Virus record (IMG/VR): IMGVR_UViG_3300033149_006003
Span: 1-20,786 of that record
Source: a virus
Length of the DNA: 20,786 bases
Strand: one strand, 5' to 3'
Position numbers and translations under genes: made by a program. A model generated the notes under the pieces. That model was given only the letters and a program-made list of their open reading frames with translations. It was not told the DNA's origin and did not search any database. Positions 8,506-20,786 of the stretch are shown in pieces; within the stretch, counting starts at the first letter, position 1, and each line of letters opens with the position of its first letter.

Positions 8506-9462
8506 ATGACACAAGCAACAGGCGCACTTGCAAGACTTGTTTTAGGGTTTCAGGCCGATAAAGCGACCCCGGCCACAGATGGTTTTGTGATGCCCATCAA
8601 CACATCAACTTTAAAATCAAGTAGGAATCAAATTATTCCTGGAACAATCCGGGGGAATCTCAACCCAGTCGAGCCCTCGGATGGGAACACTTCTGTTTCC
8701 GGGGATATAACTGTTCCGATTGATTCAATCGCAATGTGGTATTGGCTGAAGGCAATGTTTGGTTCTCCGGTAACAACGGGTTCTGCTTCGCCGTATTTGC
8801 ATACCTATAAGGCTGGTGATCCTTCAGCCAAACGGCCATATTTTACAATAGAGCATCAATATACCGATCTGGACACGCCCCTGTATTTTCTTTACACGGG
8901 TTGCAAGATAAATTCCATGAGCATTTCTATGGGCGAAGATGCGGAGCTTGTAGCGACTTTATCGATTGTTGCAATGCAGGAAGCTATAAACACGGTCTCT
9001 TTTGATTCAAGCCCGACGATAGTGAATATGTCTCGTTTGAAAAATAATCAGCTGACAATGAAAGAAGGTGGTTCTACAATCGCAAATGCAACCTTAACCA
9101 CAAATACCATTAATTGGAATTGTGATACAGATAAGTATGTAATTGGCGGCGGCGGCATACTCGGAGCTATCCCTGACGGAGTAATGAGCGTCTCTGGCAA
9201 TTTATCTGCTTTATTTGAGGATAAAGTGCTACTTGATAAGGCTATGCAGTCAACAGAATCAAGCCTTGAAGCAACCTTTACTGGTTCTGCTTCTTCAATT
9301 TTAACCTTTAAATTTCCAGAGATAAAATATACCCCGAACAGTCCGGGCATTGAAGGTCCCAAAGGCATTGCAATCTCATTGCCATACACTGCATATTATA
9401 ACAACAACAGTGACGCAACATCTGTAAAAGTTGAATTAACGAATACAGAAGAACACGCATAA
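8506..9462 (+). CDS. Major tail tube protein
   Basis: A 318-residue, almost wholly beta protein rich in Ser, Thr and Gly, with conserved-looking GFQADKATPA near the start, then RGNLNPVEPSDGNTSVSGDI (about 49-68) and PYFTIEHQYTD. This start pattern is typical of the Phage_tube_2 family, whose hexameric rings stack to form the tail tube. It is placed directly before the tail chaperones and has a good ribosome site (AGGAG). It is longer than lambda gpV (246), and the extra C-terminal part (GFT-type EATFTGSASSILTFKFPEI) may be a surface domain. Confidence 0.85.
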   Translation: MTQATGALARLVLGFQADKATPATDGFVMPINTSTLKSSRNQIIPGTIRGNLNPVEPSDGNTSVSGDITVPIDSIAMWYWLKAMFGSPVTTGSASPYLHTYKAGDPSAKRPYFTIEHQYTDLDTPLYFLYTGCKINSMSISMGEDAELVATLSIVAMQEAINTVSFDSSPTIVNMSRLKNNQLTMKEGGSTIANATLTTNTINWNCDTDKYVIGGGGILGAIPDGVMSVSGNLSALFEDKVLLDKAMQSTESSLEATFTGSASSILTFKFPEIKYTPNSPGIEGPKGIAISLPYTAYYNNNSDATSVKVELTNTEEHA

Positions 9463-10647: not shown

Positions 10648-12669
10648 ATGTCAGACGTAAAAATGGAAATAGTCCTGGCGGCAAAAGACGTTACAGCAAG
10701 GTCTTTTGCCTCAGTTGAAAAAAAGATTTCCGGGCTAAAAACTTCGGTGCTGTCTTTAAATAAAGTGATGGCAGGAGTCGCTGCAGCCACCGGTATTGGT
10801 TTTTTTATCAAAAAAAATCTTGAGGCTGCTGATGCTATTGCAAAGACAGCAGATAATATTGGTATTTCTACAAAAGCCCTGCAACAATGGCAATTTATTG
10901 CGGATAGGTCAGGCGTTTCGGCTGGCCAGCTTAATCAGGGGTTTGGTGCTTTTGCCAAAAGAATTGGAGAGTTACGTGCCGGAACAGGCGCTTTAAATAC
11001 ATATCTTAACAAAACCAACAAAGCATTAAAAAACCAACTTACCGCAACTCATTCCACATCGGAAGCTTTAAATATCTTTTTACAGGCACTTGCCGGAGTG
11101 AAAGACCAAAGCGAGCGTGCAGCCATGTCAGCAGCGGCGTTTTCACGCACCGCAGGTATAAAACTTACTAACCTTGTGCAAAATGGCACTGAGGGCCTTG
11201 CGGAAATGAAAAAAGAGTTCGCTGACCTGGGGCTTACCATTGATGATAAATTCCTTCGTCAAAGTGAAAAAGCAGTTGATCAGTTTACCAACCTTGAATT
11301 TGTAATAAAATCAAAGCTTATGCAGACCGTAGTCGAATTTACTCCTGAGATTATTAAAATTACGCAGGAAATGGTAAAGTGGATAACGCAGAATGATGAC
11401 TTGATGAAACAGAATCTGTCTGAATATCTCCACGAAGCAAAGACGGTTGTGTCAGGAATTTATGATCTTGTTAAGGAGATCAACAATTTTTATATGTCCC
11501 TGCCGGAGCCTGTCCGTGGCCCCATGGGGATTGGGCTTATTGGTACGATTCTTTTTGGGAGGAAGGGCATTATTTTATTAGGGTTATTTGCTTCAGTGGA
11601 CTCGCATGTTAGAGAAATGCAAAGAAAATTAGAGGCAATAAGCAAGCTGAAAAACAAAACAGGTGATTTTCAGATTACTTTTCCAATCAACAGCCAAACC
11701 CCGGGATATGATTTATATGATAAAAAACAAACTCAATTTAATGGTGATTTAGGGCTTGGGGAACATTACAAACAGATTCTTGAAAAATTAAAAAAATCAA
11801 GAATTGATGCACAAAAAGATTACGTGGATTCCTGGGAACTTGCCTTTCGTGACAAAGATGCAGTTCAGGCAAGATCAATTCAGGCCAGCATAGATCTCGA
11901 ACAACAGGCGATTGATGAAGCAGTTGCAAACGCCGGCACATATAAAGATTCCTGGATTGCAGCGGATAAAGAAAGAGTTGCAGCAAATCAAAGAGCTTTG
12001 GATGAGCTTGTAAAGTACGACATTGAGAGAATGCAGGAAATCAATGATTTTTCTACAAAGGTCTTTTCATCTATGGAAGATGTTTGGGTTGAGTTTTGTA
12101 CAACTGGCAAGGTTACATTTTCTGATTTTGCAAAGTCAGTGGTGGCGGACATTGCGAGAATCGAATTTGAAAAAAGTATCACAGATAAATTTAAACCAGG
12201 GCTAAATAATTTACTTTCAGCAGGGTTAGGTCTTTTTTTTGGTTCTTCTTTTGATTCAGCCCCTGATCCAAGTTCAATACATGTCGGCGCAGGCGGCACA
12301 ACAGCATTCCACATGCATACAGGCGGAATAGCAGGAGCAGACACACCGCAAAACGCAAGTTTTATGCCAACGGCCATGATGGCCTCTGCTCCAAGATTTC
12401 ATACGGGTTTGCTTCCAAATGAATTTCCTGCAATTTTAAAAAAAGGCGAAGGGGTCTTTACTCAAAAGCAGATGGCGGCATTAGGGCAACAAAACACGGC
12501 CCCGGTCGTTCAGGTTAACGTCATTAATAATACAGGCACTGATACAGATGTGAAACAACAAAGTCCCAAATGGGATGGTGAAAAATGGGTGATAGGCGTT
12601 GTGCTTGATGCGATGAAAAGGAATAAAGGTGGATTCCGCACAAATTTCAAATCAGTGATGGTGAAATAA
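10648..12669 (+). CDS. Tail tape measure protein (lambda gpH-like)
   Basis: Sets tail length and is ejected with the DNA. 673 residues (lambda gpH 853). The N-terminus has AAKDVTARSFASVEKKISGL, a hydrophobic segment at 39-53 (KVMAGVAAATGIGFF) and then long helices with LQQWQFIADRSGVSAGQLNQ (about 75-94), typical of the family. A second hydrophobic stretch lies near residues 291-317. The C-terminal part holds the lambda-type domain (FSSMEDVWVEFCTTGKVTF, about 471-489) and the closing motif PAILKKGEGVFTQKQMAALG (about 593-612). At about 0.15 nm per residue the tail would be roughly 100 nm, an estimate only. The ribosome site is GAAAGAGG. It ends with TAA directly before the next ATG. Confidence 0.92.
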   Translation: MSDVKMEIVLAAKDVTARSFASVEKKISGLKTSVLSLNKVMAGVAAATGIGFFIKKNLEAADAIAKTADNIGISTKALQQWQFIADRSGVSAGQLNQGFGAFAKRIGELRAGTGALNTYLNKTNKALKNQLTATHSTSEALNIFLQALAGVKDQSERAAMSAAAFSRTAGIKLTNLVQNGTEGLAEMKKEFADLGLTIDDKFLRQSEKAVDQFTNLEFVIKSKLMQTVVEFTPEIIKITQEMVKWITQNDDLMKQNLSEYLHEAKTVVSGIYDLVKEINNFYMSLPEPVRGPMGIGLIGTILFGRKGIILLGLFASVDSHVREMQRKLEAISKLKNKTGDFQITFPINSQTPGYDLYDKKQTQFNGDLGLGEHYKQILEKLKKSRIDAQKDYVDSWELAFRDKDAVQARSIQASIDLEQQAIDEAVANAGTYKDSWIAADKERVAANQRALDELVKYDIERMQEINDFSTKVFSSMEDVWVEFCTTGKVTFSDFAKSVVADIARIEFEKSITDKFKPGLNNLLSAGLGLFFGSSFDSAPDPSSIHVGAGGTTAFHMHTGGIAGADTPQNASFMPTAMMASAPRFHTGLLPNEFPAILKKGEGVFTQKQMAALGQQNTAPVVQVNVINNTGTDTDVKQQSPKWDGEKWVIGVVLDAMKRNKGGFRTNFKSVMVK

Positions 12670-13635: not shown

Positions 13636-14018
13636 TTGACCAATTTGAACATCTTATAGATATTCCTTTTGATGCTAATGGTGTAAATTGTTATGAATTA
13701 TTACGTAAGGCATACAAGACTTTTAATATATTTATTCCGCCAACTGACATTTCAGTCTGTGCCTGCAAACAAGTATCAAACAAAGAAATCAAAGATAGAA
13801 TTAAACTCGAATGGGAAAGAATACCAAAACCTGAAATTCCATGTGGAGTTATAATAACCCCATCTGATTTAAGTTCTGCTTTACATATTGCAACATATAT
13901 AGGCCAAGGAAAAATATTGCATATAACAAAAAATATAAACAGTATGATAGAGAATTTAAAGCCAAAATATAAAACAAGGATCTTTGGGTTTTATAGATTT
14001 ATAGGAAATAAAAAATAA
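13632..14018 (+). CDS. Small NlpC/P60-type tail tip protein (gpK-like, C-terminal domain only)
   Basis: A 128-residue papain-like NlpC/P60 domain, which in phage tails cleaves peptidoglycan peptides during entry or helps assemble the tip. The likely nucleophile is Cys20 in NGVNCYELLRKAY, the classic start-of-helix position. His85 in SALHIATYIG is the likely second residue, with His97 a candidate third. Lambda gpK also has a JAB metallopeptidase half in front; that half is absent here, as in many related phages. An extra CAC pair (43, 45) is unexplained. ATGA overlap upstream and TAATG overlap downstream (14016-14020) show strong translational coupling. Confidence 0.8.
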   Translation: MIDQFEHLIDIPFDANGVNCYELLRKAYKTFNIFIPPTDISVCACKQVSNKEIKDRIKLEWERIPKPEIPCGVIITPSDLSSALHIATYIGQGKILHITKNINSMIENLKPKYKTRIFGFYRFIGNKK

Positions 14019-17000
14019 TGATTACTGTTGTTTTTATAGAAAATCCATTAATTGCAACAAATAATATAAAAAAAAGATATTCTTTTAAGGAAGAGGAATC
14101 TCTTTTTTATTATTTAAATCATATATCAAAAGATAAGAAAAAATTATCTACAGATTTTGTTGTTGCTGTAAATGGATTTAAAGTTGATATCAACGATTAT
14201 AAACCTCAAGACCAAGATATTATCAGTATCACTCCTAAGGTAGAGGGATTAGTATCCGGGTTTTTAGCTTCTTATGTTGTTTCTTTCTTGTCTCTTTCAG
14301 GGGTTGCTACATACTTGACGTATGGCGCTGTGTATTTAGGTTCGATGTTTGCAATAGGATACGGAGCATCTAAACTTTTATCAGTATTGTCTCCTCCCCT
14401 TGATAACAAAACTCCTGAAATTGATGATCAAAATTATGGCTGGGGAGATGTTCAAAACTCTATTGTTGAAGGGAATCCTATCCCAATTTTATTTGGGACA
14501 AACAAGGTATATGGACAGGTTTTAAATTATTATACAAAAAATGATAATGACGACCAATATTTATACATGCTTATTGGGATTTGTGATCATGAGGTAAACG
14601 CTATTGATACTATCACAATCAACGGCAAGGACTATACTGACTATGAAAATGCAGAGGTTTATACAGGATTAGGAACAGCTAATGATGCTGTGATCCCGGG
14701 TTTTGGCGATTCTATTGTTCAAGATGCTGTTAATACTAATCTTGATGTGAATGTGCCCGTTTCGATTACAACAACAGGAGACATGGTAGAGGAAATAGAC
14801 GTTATGCTTACTGCTCCTGAAGGGTTGTATTATTTTGATCATCATGGAGATAAGCAAGATGTTTATACTAACGTTAAAATTGAATATAAAAAAGCTTCTG
14901 ACACAACATATACTTTATTCGGTAATTTTGAAGTAAGAGGAAACACAACAACAGTTGCCCAAAGAACATATACTATTGCCAGTCTTCCGCCTGATCAATA
15001 TGATGTGCAAGTCACAAGAACAGATGTGTTTAGGCGAGATTGGGAAAATCATGAAATTGAAGGTTCCACTACTGCTGGTGATGTTCTTGAATTTGCTGCA
15101 ATTCACGAGATTGTTAAAGGGGATTTAATTTTTCCGGGTCTTGCAAAATTTGGAGTAAAGTTAAAAGCAAATGAACAACTTAATAATTCCATGCCAACTT
15201 TGGCTTGTTATGCGCATAGAGATACTGTTCCTATTTTTGATGGGACGGATACAACAGACCAGAGAGCAGATAGTCCAGCTTGGATTTGTTTATATATTTT
15301 ACAGACTTTAGCCAATATCCCTTTTGAAAGAATTAATTATGATGATTTTCAGGAATGGGCAGATTACTGTGATGAGACTGTAGATTCAGATGTAAGATTC
15401 CGGGTTAATATTATTATCGGTGAAGGAAATTTTTGGGACAATCTTCAGAAAATTGCTTTTCTTGGTGACGCATCAATTATTAATCGAGTATCTCAATATG
15501 GGGTATTTATTGATAAGCCTGGCAGTTTAGTTTCTCATGTTTTTTCTATGGGTAATATTGTCGCAGATTCTTATAAAATGCAGTATCTCGATACAGAGAA
15601 TGCTGCTAATTGTATAGAGATTGATTATAATGATGTAAATAAGGACCAGGAAAGACAATCAGTCGCTGTTTATACGGATGGATATTTAACAGGAGTAAAA
15701 GATATTCAACCTGCAACGCTATCTCTATCTGCCGCAATCTCAAGAGACGAGGCTATTCGGCATGGCATTTTAAGTTTGAATAATAATTTATTATTAAAAA
15801 GAGTTATTACTTTTGATGCTTATATTGATTCTTTTGCCTGCATAGTAAAGGATTTAATCTATTTTCAGCATATTGCCACTGATGAAGGGACAAGAATTGG
15901 TGGAAGGATTATTGATGCAGGGAACGATGATGGTTCAGGAAATCCTTTTGTAACTTTTGATCAAAAAATTCCTGTTGTTGCAGGAACGACTTATGGTTTT
16001 TTAATCCGTCAAAAAGATGATTCTATTATTGAAAAGATCCTTGCCCCTGTTTCTTCTGGAGAATTTGATACTTTTACTATTCAATCATCTTGGGTGACCG
16101 TCCCGGACGTTACAGAAAAACCTCCCTTTATTTTTGGTGTTGAATATAAAAAAATTTACAGAATCACAAGTATTACAAGACAAGATGATTTTACACGCAC
16201 TATTACAGCGATTGAGTATAATCCTTTAATATATTCGAACAATCAAAATATTGTAATTCCTGATTATGTGGCGCCAGTAGTTCCATACCAAATTTCTTCT
16301 ATTTCCTGTAAAGAAATTTTAATTTTAGGCAAAGATTTGAATACTTATCAAAGTCTTGTAAATGTTAGTTGGACGACACAAGGCACGCCAGACTTAATAA
16401 ATTACACCTGGAATGTAACTATTGTCTCAACAGGAGATGCAGTTTTATTAGGTACGGGAACAGGAGTGGGGTATACCCAAACATGGTCAGGATATGATTC
16501 TTCATGGTCTGATACATACACAGATATGTATCAGATTGACGCTAATACCGTTGAGTTTTCAGGGATTACAACAAATAATTTTACTATTCCTCCAACATAT
16601 TTTTTTGAGGTAGGAAAGACATATAAGATATATGTATCTTCTCCACAGATAAAACAAAGTAATACATCAATTTTCCAAACGATTACAATAAAAGGCCAGG
16701 ATGCAGCTCCAGCAGATGTAACGTCGTTTCAAGGATTATTTGATTCAATAAAAAGAATAATAACTTTCACATGGGCAGCTATTTCAGACATTGATATTGA
16801 TAAATATGAACTGAGGGAGGGCTCTGACTGGCAATCAGCAATAAAGGTAATACAAACTATTGATAATATTGCAACTGTTTCAATTCCATCATCTGATAAA
16901 TCAGTATCAAAAACATACCTGTTAAAAGCAATAGATACATCTGGGAATGAATCTGCAAACGCTGCTGTCACAACTGTTGATATATCTGCAACAGGAGTAT

Positions 17001-19399
17001 CAAGTCTTGAAATTCCAACTGGATTAACTCTTACTACTCTTTCAACTGTATCCAGTTCCGGGACGGATGTTGTCACCCTGCTTGCCACCTGGGATAATAA
17101 TGCTGCTCAATATATAGATTTTAATCATTATGACATTCAGTTGGAAAACCTTGATATTGGGAAAAAATCTCAATATTCCACGACAGATGAAGAATACCAG
17201 TGGCAGGTTGTCCCCGCTACCAATTATGGAGTTACTGTTCGGGCAGCGGACAATGGGAATAATGTTACAGATTGGTGCACACAGCAAACAATTTTGTCAG
17301 CAAAGGATACAATTCCCCCATCTATTCCAACAACATTAAAAGCAGTAGGGACATGGACGTCTATTATTTTAACTTGGAAACATGGAGCAGAAGCCGATCT
17401 TAGCAATTTCATTGTCTTAAGGAATGACACCAATGACTCTTCCACTGCTGTAGAGTTAGGGATTGCACCAAAGACATTAACTCCAACTCTTGCAATGTTT
17501 ACCGATTCTCCTCCAAGTAGTAATGCCTACTATTATTGGGTAAAAGCAGTTGACACTTCCGGCAATGAAAGTGCGCTGTCAAATGTTGCTTCTGCTTCTG
17601 CTAAGGGGGTGGATTTTAAAGACATAAACATTCCTGAATTATCAATAACAGAGACTATGATTGCAGATGATTCAATCTCAACCCCAAAATTACAGGCTAA
17701 TTCAGTTACAACAAATGAAATTGCAGCGGGGGCTGTCAAGGCAGAAACGATTGCCGCAAACGCAATTACAGCGCAAAAAATAGCTGCGGGGGAAATTGGG
17801 ACTCAACAATTAGCAGCTGATGCAGTTATAGCAAGCAAGATAGATGTGGATAAATTATCTGCAATTTCTGCTGATATAGGGGTTGTTACAGCCGGGAAAA
17901 TTCAGAATAAAACAGGTTCAAGCTATTTTGATCTTGATAATAATCTATTCGCTCTCGGAACAGGTTTTACTTATAATGGTGTTGATCTTAATTACATAGG
18001 CAATATAACTATAAAATCGGGAACCGGATATTCTCAGTTTGTTGATAAACCAACATCTTTAAAAGATATTTCTGTAAGTGACAATGAATTACTTACTCAG
18101 GCATCAACCAATTCAGATTTTGCTATTAGTTTAATGACTGATATGCAATCTGATTCTATTCTTTCCCCTGCTGAAAAGGCTACATTACGGGCTAATTGGT
18201 CAACAATGTACGCCAATTATATGGCTTTAAAAAGTTATGCTGACATTTTAAATGTTGGTTCATCCGTGTTGGTAAAAAAGGCAGACAAACTTTATTCTTA
18301 TCTTGTATCTGCCGGAGTCTGGAGCCATCCCGATGATAGCTATAAAATCGTGGGAAATAGGCTGGTAGATAAAATAACAGCATATTATACAGCATTTACA
18401 GATTTGACAAGTGCCTGTTCTTCTGCTGCCGCAAACCTTGCAAGCGATGATGCACTTGCTTCTGCTCAATCTTATGCTGAAGATCAGGCACATCTTGCAA
18501 AAGTAACAGCTAATGCCTATGCAGATGGAATTGTCTCAGATTCAGAACAGGCAATGATGAATTATGCAAAGGCAAAGGCAAACGCAGCTAAAATAAGTGC
18601 TAAAGCCTACTCAGATGGAAAAATAACAAAAGCAGAGAAAAAGGCTATTGATGCAGCAAAAAAAAAGGCTGATGCGGCTAAACTTGATGCAATGCAGTAT
18701 ACAGAAAACTGGTGCGATCAAGGAGCGGACGTTACAAGTACAAATTTCGCAAAAGGGATAGTTAATCAAGGAGATCTTGCCACTAAAAATGTTGTCGGGA
18801 TTAATGATTTAAATAGCACTGTTATTTCAAATGGAAAAATCACTACTAACCTTGTTGATGCAAATTCTATTGTTTCGAGAAGTATTACAGCTAATGAGAT
18901 TGCAACAAATACTATCACTGCAAATGAAATTGCAGCGGGGGCTATTACAGCAAGTGAAATTGGTGCAAATAAGGTAATTACTTGCTCCGCAAATATTGGG
19001 GATTTAGTTGTTGACACCTTAAATATTGCAGGGAATGCTGTTACAGTCCCTTTAAGTATAAATGGAGGATATATAAGTGTCGGTGGTAATGCTATAGTTA
19101 AATTAATTGAAGCTGTGAATTTTCCATCAAACAAAGGGAATATTTTAATTCAATATTCAAGTACATATGGTGGTTTATCTTCTGATCGAGGAACTTTATT
19201 AGTTGCATTATACCGGGGAAATATAGAATGCAGGAGATTAGGTTATACATATGATGATGGAAATAAAGCTATTTCTTTCGCTTATATTGATAATTCTCCT
19301 AATGACACTGATACATATACCGTTTATTGCCAAAATTTACATGATCATGAACTATACTTAGATAATCTCAATTTAAGTTTATTGCTTGCAAAAAAATAA
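14018..19399 (+). CDS. Giant tail tip protein: gpI-like N-terminus fused to gpJ-like hub and receptor-side extension
   Basis: 1793 residues, far longer than lambda gpJ (1132). Residues ~1-77 look like a ThiS-type beta-grasp domain and ~78-127 are strongly hydrophobic (SGFLASYVVSFL onward), matching lambda gpI. Then GNPIPILFGTNKVYGQVLNY (152-171) opens a gpJ-type hub, carried on through GEGNFWDNLQKIAF and DAYIDSFACIVKDLIYFQHI. Three fibronectin III-like repeats follow at about 897-991, 998-1098 and 1097-1197; two contain KAxDTSGNES. An alanine-isoleucine repeat (TNEIAAGAV type) at about 1211-1295 and again at ~1614-1678 flanks a coiled-coil-like AYADG/KAKANAAK region at about 1481-1560. Residues ~1679-1793 form a beta-rich C-terminus, a plausible receptor-contacting tip. 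In lambda J the C-terminus binds the receptor; the same role is inferred. Confidence 0.9.
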   Translation: MITVVFIENPLIATNNIKKRYSFKEEESLFYYLNHISKDKKKLSTDFVVAVNGFKVDINDYKPQDQDIISITPKVEGLVSGFLASYVVSFLSLSGVATYLTYGAVYLGSMFAIGYGASKLLSVLSPPLDNKTPEIDDQNYGWGDVQNSIVEGNPIPILFGTNKVYGQVLNYYTKNDNDDQYLYMLIGICDHEVNAIDTITINGKDYTDYENAEVYTGLGTANDAVIPGFGDSIVQDAVNTNLDVNVPVSITTTGDMVEEIDVMLTAPEGLYYFDHHGDKQDVYTNVKIEYKKASDTTYTLFGNFEVRGNTTTVAQRTYTIASLPPDQYDVQVTRTDVFRRDWENHEIEGSTTAGDVLEFAAIHEIVKGDLIFPGLAKFGVKLKANEQLNNSMPTLACYAHRDTVPIFDGTDTTDQRADSPAWICLYILQTLANIPFERINYDDFQEWADYCDETVDSDVRFRVNIIIGEGNFWDNLQKIAFLGDASIINRVSQYGVFIDKPGSLVSHVFSMGNIVADSYKMQYLDTENAANCIEIDYNDVNKDQERQSVAVYTDGYLTGVKDIQPATLSLSAAISRDEAIRHGILSLNNNLLLKRVITFDAYIDSFACIVKDLIYFQHIATDEGTRIGGRIIDAGNDDGSGNPFVTFDQKIPVVAGTTYGFLIRQKDDSIIEKILAPVSSGEFDTFTIQSSWVTVPDVTEKPPFIFGVEYKKIYRITSITRQDDFTRTITAIEYNPLIYSNNQNIVIPDYVAPVVPYQISSISCKEILILGKDLNTYQSLVNVSWTTQGTPDLINYTWNVTIVSTGDAVLLGTGTGVGYTQTWSGYDSSWSDTYTDMYQIDANTVEFSGITTNNFTIPPTYFFEVGKTYKIYVSSPQIKQSNTSIFQTITIKGQDAAPADVTSFQGLFDSIKRIITFTWAAISDIDIDKYELREGSDWQSAIKVIQTIDNIATVSIPSSDKSVSKTYLLKAIDTSGNESANAAVTTVDISATGVSSLEIPTGLTLTTLSTVSSSGTDVVTLLATWDNNAAQYIDFNHYDIQLENLDIGKKSQYSTTDEEYQWQVVPATNYGVTVRAADNGNNVTDWCTQQTILSAKDTIPPSIPTTLKAVGTWTSIILTWKHGAEADLSNFIVLRNDTNDSSTAVELGIAPKTLTPTLAMFTDSPPSSNAYYYWVKAVDTSGNESALSNVASASAKGVDFKDINIPELSITETMIADDSISTPKLQANSVTTNEIAAGAVKAETIAANAITAQKIAAGEIGTQQLAADAVIASKIDVDKLSAISADIGVVTAGKIQNKTGSSYFDLDNNLFALGTGFTYNGVDLNYIGNITIKSGTGYSQFVDKPTSLKDISVSDNELLTQASTNSDFAISLMTDMQSDSILSPAEKATLRANWSTMYANYMALKSYADILNVGSSVLVKKADKLYSYLVSAGVWSHPDDSYKIVGNRLVDKITAYYTAFTDLTSACSSAAANLASDDALASAQSYAEDQAHLAKVTANAYADGIVSDSEQAMMNYAKAKANAAKISAKAYSDGKITKAEKKAIDAAKKKADAAKLDAMQYTENWCDQGADVTSTNFAKGIVNQGDLATKNVVGINDLNSTVISNGKITTNLVDANSIVSRSITANEIATNTITANEIAAGAITASEIGANKVITCSANIGDLVVDTLNIAGNAVTVPLSINGGYISVGGNAIVKLIEAVNFPSNKGNILIQYSSTYGGLSSDRGTLLVALYRGNIECRRLGYTYDDGNKAISFAYIDNSPNDTDTYTVYCQNLHDHELYLDNLNLSLLLAKK

Positions 19400-19408
19400 G
19401 GAAAAAAA

Positions 19409-19873
19409 ATGGAATTAACAGTTTATAATAAAAAAACCGGACAGATTATAAAGACAATGACAGGAAATAGAAAGATTATTGTAAACTGCCTGTCAAAAAA
19501 TGAAGCATATATTGAGGGGATATATCCACTCAACGGTGCAATTATAAATGGAAAATATCAACCAAAAAAATATAAACATCCAGATATCCCATCTGATAAT
19601 TTAAGGGATGTTTTAGAATATGCCAGAGAAGGAAAAGAAACGTGTATTAAGGCTCTTGAAAATACCGGAATGGCTAAAAGCCAGGCAGAGAAATATATTA
19701 TCGACAATTACCATGTCTTTCGTTCTAAAAGATATCCTGACATCCAAGAATTTATTGATGCAGAAGTTAAGATTCATTCTGGCGATGCGGCTCTGGTAAA
19801 GAAAGGACAGGAGCAAAAAGAAAAATATATTCAACAGTGTCTTGATGTAAAGAACGAATTTAAAAAGGGGTAA
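19409..19873 (+). CDS. Fibre-associated accessory protein, possible tail fibre chaperone
   Basis: A 154-residue protein between the giant tip gene and the fibre gene. The first half is strand-rich (KIIVNCLSKNEAYIEGIYP, about 23-41, then GAIINGKYQPKKYKHPD), as in the small beta domains of phage fibre-related proteins. The second half is helical and charged, with RSKRYPDIQEFIDAEVKI (about 105-122) and a close KYIQQCLDVKNEFKKG. A YPxxxEFIDA segment followed by a short lysine-rich end is common in small tail-region proteins next to fibre genes. No specific activity is visible. Ribosome site AAGGAAAAAA; four bases separate it from the fibre gene. Confidence 0.55.
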   Translation: MELTVYNKKTGQIIKTMTGNRKIIVNCLSKNEAYIEGIYPLNGAIINGKYQPKKYKHPDIPSDNLRDVLEYAREGKETCIKALENTGMAKSQAEKYIIDNYHVFRSKRYPDIQEFIDAEVKIHSGDAALVKKGQEQKEKYIQQCLDVKNEFKKG

Positions 19874-19876
19874 AGT

Positions 19877-20485
19877 ATGGCACGGAAAATAATAGATGAT
19901 GTAACTAATTTATCAACACCAAAAAAAATGATGATAGCGATAGATGAGAACTTTACAGAACTTTATAATGATGTTGCTGTTAACAATAAAAAAGTAGGGG
20001 TAACTGATCAAATATCCAGTCTTGTCGAAGACACCTCCCCTCAACTCGGTGGTGATCTTGATTTAAATGGGCATACAATACAAGGAATGACAACGGGGGG
20101 TTTGGGTGCAGTTGTCGAAGATACTTCTCCGCAGCTTGGCGGTGATCTCGACCTTAACGGGCATACAATTTTGAATCTTCCTGTTTCCGGGATATCTGAA
20201 GTTGTTGAGGATTCTACCCCACAGCTTGGAGGAACACTTGATACAAATGGAAACAATATTGACAATGTAACCCCCGCAGAATTAAATCGAGTTCACGGTG
20301 TCACATCTCCTATCCAATCTCAAATTGATAGTAAAATAGGGAATCTTGTCGAAGACACCTCCCCCCAGCTTGGCGGAGACCTTGATTTAAATGGGCATAC
20401 AATCACAGGTCTTTCAACGGGAGGATTAGGTTCTGTGGCAGAAGATACAACGCCACAGTTAGGCGGAAACCTCGATACAAATTAG
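19877..20485 (+). pseudogene. Repeat-rich tail fibre protein, reading frame broken by a 23-bp duplication
   Basis: The start MARKIIDDVTNLSTPKKMMI (ribosome site AAAGGGG) is followed by a fibre made of the repeat EDTSPQLGGDLDLNGHTI, beginning at residues 50, 80, 110, 158 and 188, with spacings 30, 30, 48 and 30. Between some repeats lies DNVTPAELNRVHGVTSPIQ, a module widespread in phage tail fibres. At 20483-20485 the frame meets a TAG created by an exact 23-bp tandem duplication (20459-20481 and 20482-20504). Removing one copy restores an open frame that continues the same repeat through to the window end, at least 101 more codons (20482 onward). The gene is therefore broken as written, or the duplication is a slippage variant or an assembly error. 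It is also incomplete at the window edge. Confidence 0.8.
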
Positions 20486-20552
20486 GCGGAAACCTCGATA
20501 CAAACGGGCATAATATTGATAACGTAACACCTACAGAGCTTAATCATGTGCA
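20369..20552 (+). repeat. First copy of a long direct repeat in the fibre gene
   Basis: Identical by eye to 20626-20786 over all 161 bases once the 23-bp duplication is set aside. It encodes the GGDLDLNGHTI to TELNHVH section. The corrected offset is 234 bp (78 codons). Confidence 0.85.
20459..20504 (+). repeat. 23-bp perfect tandem duplication inside the fibre gene
   Basis: Copies 20459-20481 and 20482-20504 are identical, beginning TTAGGCGGAAACC and ending GATACAAA. The junction creates the TAG that stops the fibre frame. 23 is not a multiple of three, so the copy number sets the frame. Confidence 0.9.
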
Positions 20553-20786
20553 CGGGACAACATCAAGCATCCAGGGGCAAATAGATTCAAAAATTGAAAA
20601 AGTTGAAGATGACACAGCACCAAAACTTGGCGGAGACCTTGATTTAAATGGGCATACAATCACAGGTCTTTCAACGGGAGGATTAGGTTCTGTGGCAGAA
20701 GATACAACGCCACAGTTAGGCGGAAACCTCGATACAAACGGGCATAATATTGATAACGTAACACCTACAGAGCTTAATCATGTGCA
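20482..20786 (+). CDS. Continuation of the tail fibre in the shifted frame, partial
   Basis: Read from 20482 this frame gives LGGNLDTNGHNIDNVTP, TELNHVHGTTSSIQGQIDSK, EDDTAPKLGGDLDLNGHTI and a second LGGNLDTNGHNID, the same fibre repeat modules, with no stop to the edge of the window. It has no start codon or ribosome site of its own and is best taken as the rest of the preceding fibre gene after correcting the 23-bp duplication. Confidence 0.7.
20626..20786 (+). repeat. Second copy of the long direct repeat, cut by the window end
   Basis: Perfect match to the first copy (20369-20552) without the extra 23 bases. The window ends while the repeat is still running, so its true length is unknown. 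Confidence 0.85.

Follow-up and report, generated by a model that had tools for sequence, protein, structure and literature searches.

A repetitive gene at the end of a phage record

The window analysed here is an entire virus record of 20,786 bp, and the end of the window is the end of the record. PHROGs matches to a terminase large subunit, a portal, a head maturation protease and a major head protein point to a lambda-like tailed phage, and a gpJ-like central tail fibre protein is also among the matches of the record. A repetitive gene starts at 19877, after the gpJ-like ORF and a 154-aa ORF, and its product repeats the motif PQLGG-LD-NG. Two copies of a 23-bp unit follow each other directly and in the same orientation within this gene, and the reading frame ends at their junction (Table 1).

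Table 1 Coordinates of the features in the window, and the control duplications with a period not divisible by 3
Feature	Location	Strand	Remarks
gpJ-like ORF	14018–19399		PHROGs match
154-aa ORF	19409–19873		between the gpJ-like ORF and the repetitive gene
Repetitive, probably fibre-like gene, 5' part	19877–20485	+	202 aa open, TAG at 20483–20485
Motif array continuation	20482–20784	+	other frame; 101 codons with no stop before the contig ends
23-bp unit, copy 1	20459–20481	+	exact tandem search; Tandem Repeats Finder
23-bp unit, copy 2	20482–20504	+	adjacent to copy 1, first bases complete the stop codon; exact tandem search; Tandem Repeats Finder
23-bp unit, third occurrence	20716–20738	+	single, in the next repeat module
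113-bp stretch	20369–20481	+	exact repeat at 20626–20738, offset 257
71-bp stretch	20482–20552	+	exact repeat at 20716–20786 (end of the record), offset 234
Terminal 161 bp	20626–20786	+	mismatch-free copy of 20369–20481 plus 20505–20552
Out-of-phase control duplication, period 19	L026		25 bp from the contig end
Out-of-phase control duplication, period 23	L090		between ORFs, not near a known contig end
Out-of-phase control duplication, period 20	L090		3' end of a 122-aa ORF, not near a known contig end

The repeat protein matches PHROG 31104 (unknown function) and PHROG 16122 (virion structural protein), and it has one phage match at the protein level, a putative structural protein of Pelagibacter phage HTVC115P with 38.7% identity (residues 71–176). 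The repeat motif is common to all of these, although the matches cover parts only. NCBIfam holds no match for the protein and Pfam none above the cut-off, and neither a distant nor a near search of the phage collection returned relatives of the fibre DNA. For the 202-aa part, a single-sequence fold prediction made without an alignment has a mean pLDDT of 44.5, too low to give a fold. The gene lies next to the tail-tip gene (gpJ-like, with one further ORF between) and consists of modular repeats, as expected of a tail fibre, and from its place and motif the product is probably a modular virion protein of this kind. The initial annotation had called it a receptor-binding fibre, a name with which place and motif agree but which no family model gives to the protein.

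Relatives of the portal at 72–75% identity occur in four viral records (L021–L024), in which the fibre and J proteins have no match; these records may be fragments, and such an empty answer shows nothing. The tail-tip module (14018–19399 and 19877–20786) may have been exchanged, or the records of the portal relatives may be fragmentary. Peptide patterns that reach close relatives only gave no viral-contig relatives for the J-like protein or for the 154-aa protein at 19409. The gpJ-like ORF contains a 23-bp exact repeat (17712–17734 and 18921–18943), the copies of which are 1,209 bp (403 codons) apart and hence in phase.

The duplication, the reading frame and the end of the contig

The two exact and adjacent copies that had been described at 20459–20504 are confirmed: they join without a mismatch, and the flanking bases at their borders differ on both sides. 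In a scan of the window for periods 6–599, no other exact tandem duplication exceeds a period of 6, and Tandem Repeats Finder gives this one 100% matches and returns one other row, an imperfect 15-bp repeat at 11855–11885. Among 200 simulated windows with the same trinucleotide statistics, none has an exact tandem duplication with a period of 15–59. The 23-mer has no exact match in viral contigs and the 31-base junction pattern none in genome contigs, in collections from which records very near the window may have been left out. Hairpin folding of the DNA at the duplication does not stand out (z −0.85, with 35 of 200 shuffles equally or more stable).

As the initial annotation had proposed, the duplication makes an immediate stop: the ORF ends GAT ACA AAT TAG, and the in-frame stop is created by the copy junction. 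The frame break is likewise present in the contig, in that the frame is open only with one copy and the motif resumes in another frame. Motif starts at 20039, 20129, 20219, 20363 and 20453 share one frame, and those at 20620 and 20710 share another. The spacings between them are 90, 90, 144, 90, 167 and 90, where 167 = 144 + 23, and only this interval, with its extra 23 bp, departs from the 90/144 pattern. The modules of the protein would be 30 and 48 residues long, and a pair of them makes 78 aa or 234 bp. The contig stops short of the 3' end of the gene.

With the extra 23 bp set aside, the terminal 161 bp match the stretch 234 bp (78 codons) upstream with 0 mismatches. The 144 bp ahead of that upstream stretch (20225–20368) differ from the sequence 257 bp downstream at 51 of 144 positions. 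The last module is either a very recent in-frame duplication or the product of an assembler that circled a repeat loop. The extra 23 bp occur in one pass through the repeat and are missing from the last module of the contig, which is identical in all else. Hence the extra copy, if real, arose after a module duplication whose 161 bp show 0 substitutions. It also splits a would-be 161-bp repeat into 113 and 71 bp; an exact repeat of 161 bp would exceed the longest ones listed for the control loci described below, which are 104 bp (viral) and 149 bp (genome locus L132). There are hints, without proof, that the contig could be written through the repeat only thanks to the 23-bp difference, be it real or an error.

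Comparison with control loci

The controls are 137 loci (L002–L027 and L034–L144) with a total of 1,533,205 bp, 106 of them from viral and 31 from genome contigs; L001 is the window and L028–L033 fall in records that had been counted before, and these were excluded. Most of the controls are distant relatives, several rows belong to a single locus, the loci are cut at a flank of 6–10 kb, and one control set consists of the best 80 of 398 relatives. The 31 genome loci (L114–L144) carry the motif in contigs of assembled bacterial and archaeal genomes from many phyla, and they are probably phage or prophage DNA binned with those genomes.

Between the duplication and the end of the record are 282 bp, and the record stops within the exactly repeated 71 bp. 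None of the 168 known contig ends of the 137 control loci lies inside a repeat of at least 20 bp that recurs in the locus. The related motif arrays examined are free of breaks: in 88 neighbouring motif pairs the two copies lie within 1 kb (62 of 137 loci), 83 of the pairs in one open frame and the other five across two adjacent ORFs (L068, L073, L110, L037 and L079), so that an intragenic frame break is seen in 0 of 88. Exact direct repeats of at least 60 bp with copies up to 2 kb apart were listed for 8 of the 137 loci, at most four per locus, and all 18 are spaced by a multiple of 3, in contrast to the 113-bp repeat of the window at 257. The five loci with a motif pair across two ORFs illustrate a separate point, namely that two neighbouring genes of a phage often both carry the PQLGG-LD motif, in frames that differ.

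Exact tandem duplications with a period of at least 15 number 19 in the 137 loci. Their period is divisible by 3 in 16 cases, 15 of which lie where one frame has no stop for 121 codons or more, and units of 69 and 84 bp are duplicated exactly and in phase. The three exceptions are given in Table 1, and the period-20 case in L090 shows that an out-of-phase duplication can overlap a reading frame elsewhere than at a contig end. Border homology is zero in 2 of the 19. In L090, an unrelated viral contig, positions 8941–9002 hold approximately 2.7 copies of a 23-bp unit between ORFs; this unit contains the palindrome-like GGGGAAAATTTCCC, and its length equals that of the unit in the window, probably by chance. 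The period-19 array in L026 (26–98), close to its contig end, is possibly an assembly effect.

Origin of the second copy

We consider it most probable, at roughly 60%, that the second copy is an assembly or library-preparation error at a repeat-limited contig end. The assembly of the phage would have run out inside an array in which some modules are repeated exactly in the DNA, the second 23-bp copy would be an assembly or library error made where the contig stops, and in the phage the gene would continue uninterrupted; the phage DNA presumably carries no double copy. An artefact had been offered by the initial annotation as the alternative to a switch, and it is now the best-supported reading, given the contig end in an exact repeat, the module spacing and the controls. 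In its favour, the 90/144 spacing holds everywhere except in the interval with the extra 23 bp, the control motif pairs stay in one open frame or span adjacent ORFs, and the listed control repeats of at least 60 bp keep a spacing in multiples of 3 that the window's 257 does not. The control tandem periods are mostly divisible by 3, with one of the three exceptions 25 bp from a contig end, and the extra copy, missing from the otherwise identical end module, would have to postdate a 161-bp duplication that has no substitution. The situation resembles the termination or mis-joining of metagenome contigs at near-identical repeats, in that the contig ends inside its own exact repeat and the oddity lies beside the end.

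One metagenome assembly is described as having used a MEGAHIT k-value list starting at 23 (PMC6646334). That 23 is a k-mer length is a lead only, as no assembly step is known to copy a single k-mer. A large-k de Bruijn assembler writes a double copy only when the reads contain one. Hence a simple k-mer error is not a full explanation, and roughly one third of the probability stays with a variant that is real, be it rare or young. Also against an artefact, out-of-phase exact tandem duplications do exist in the controls (two in L090), and zero border homology is found in control duplications too and is not unique to artefacts.

Second in rank, and clearly less probable than an error, is a real and recent 23-bp tandem duplication in the phage or in part of its population, which would cut the protein to 202 aa and be a passenger or loss-of-function mutation with no switching role. 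The duplication is perfect and cleanly bounded, the 69- and 84-bp in-phase control duplications indicate that young duplications are natural in such genes, and an assembler normally requires reads to write such a sequence. However, a real duplication would truncate a structural gene in the middle of its array, for which the control pairs offer no example of an intragenic break, and the site is at a repeat-limited contig end.

The initial annotation had raised the possibility of reversible slippage between one and two copies, which would toggle between a short and a long fibre. This is not supported, and we regard it as unlikely. In its favour, the period of 23 is not divisible by 3, the second copy brings a stop at once, and slippage can remove one of two adjacent exact copies such as those in the window. 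However, the tandem array has just two copies, any copy number above one meets the TAG at the first junction, leaving the frame open in the single-copy state alone, and that state offers no border homology (0 bp) from which a new duplication could be templated. Hence the locus could readily only lose a copy; zero border homology alone is weak evidence because 2 of 19 control duplications have it too. At a contingency locus, slippage works both ways and a change in copy number can reopen the frame. The window shares with such slipped-strand, phase-variable loci a tandem unit in a coding frame with a length not divisible by 3. It differs from them in that there are not several copies, or a homopolymer, able to gain and lose units, and in that no higher copy number reopens the frame, since a second copy always completes AAT TAG. 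Copy-number-variable tandem repeats are known from phage genomes. One such array is similar in consisting of short tandem repeats, but it has from two to more than 20 copies, lies at the variable terminus of its genome and was seen to vary in a population. The accessible parts of the open-licence literature on phage fibre phase variation and fibre tandem repeats, including PMC6445280, contain no comparable report of such a phage-fibre switch, which does not prove its absence. A population that mixes one- and two-copy molecules and switches between the 202-aa and the long fibre, and in which new double copies form otherwise than by plain slippage, is slightly more doubtful still.

Least probable of all is a reading in which the gene ends normally at this stop or is recoded there, with the downstream part a second gene or reached by a −1 ribosomal shift. 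By eye, a −1 step at AAT TAG leads straight into the downstream frame, but there is no canonical slippery heptamer by eye and the downstream RNA structure is not special (z 0.68, with 150 of 200 shuffles equally or more stable). Five control pairs show the motif in both of two adjacent genes, and a GTG at 20692 has a GGAGG a few bases upstream; however, this GGAGG recurs earlier, in the first module of the array (20420), where it encodes part of the repeat, and the GTG at 20548 has no Shine-Dalgarno-like site. Ribosomal frameshifting and an internal start are thus not well supported by the RNA fold and by inspection of the start sites.

A real and reversible duplication would give the phage a switch for a probable adsorption protein, which would be of interest. 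With an error as the preferred explanation, an idle mutation behind it and reversible phase variation unlikely, little biology depends on the duplication and the finding is ordinary. It does carry a caution: frame breaks in the repetitive fibre genes of metagenomic phages should be compared with the module spacing and with the position of the contig end before they are called phase variation.
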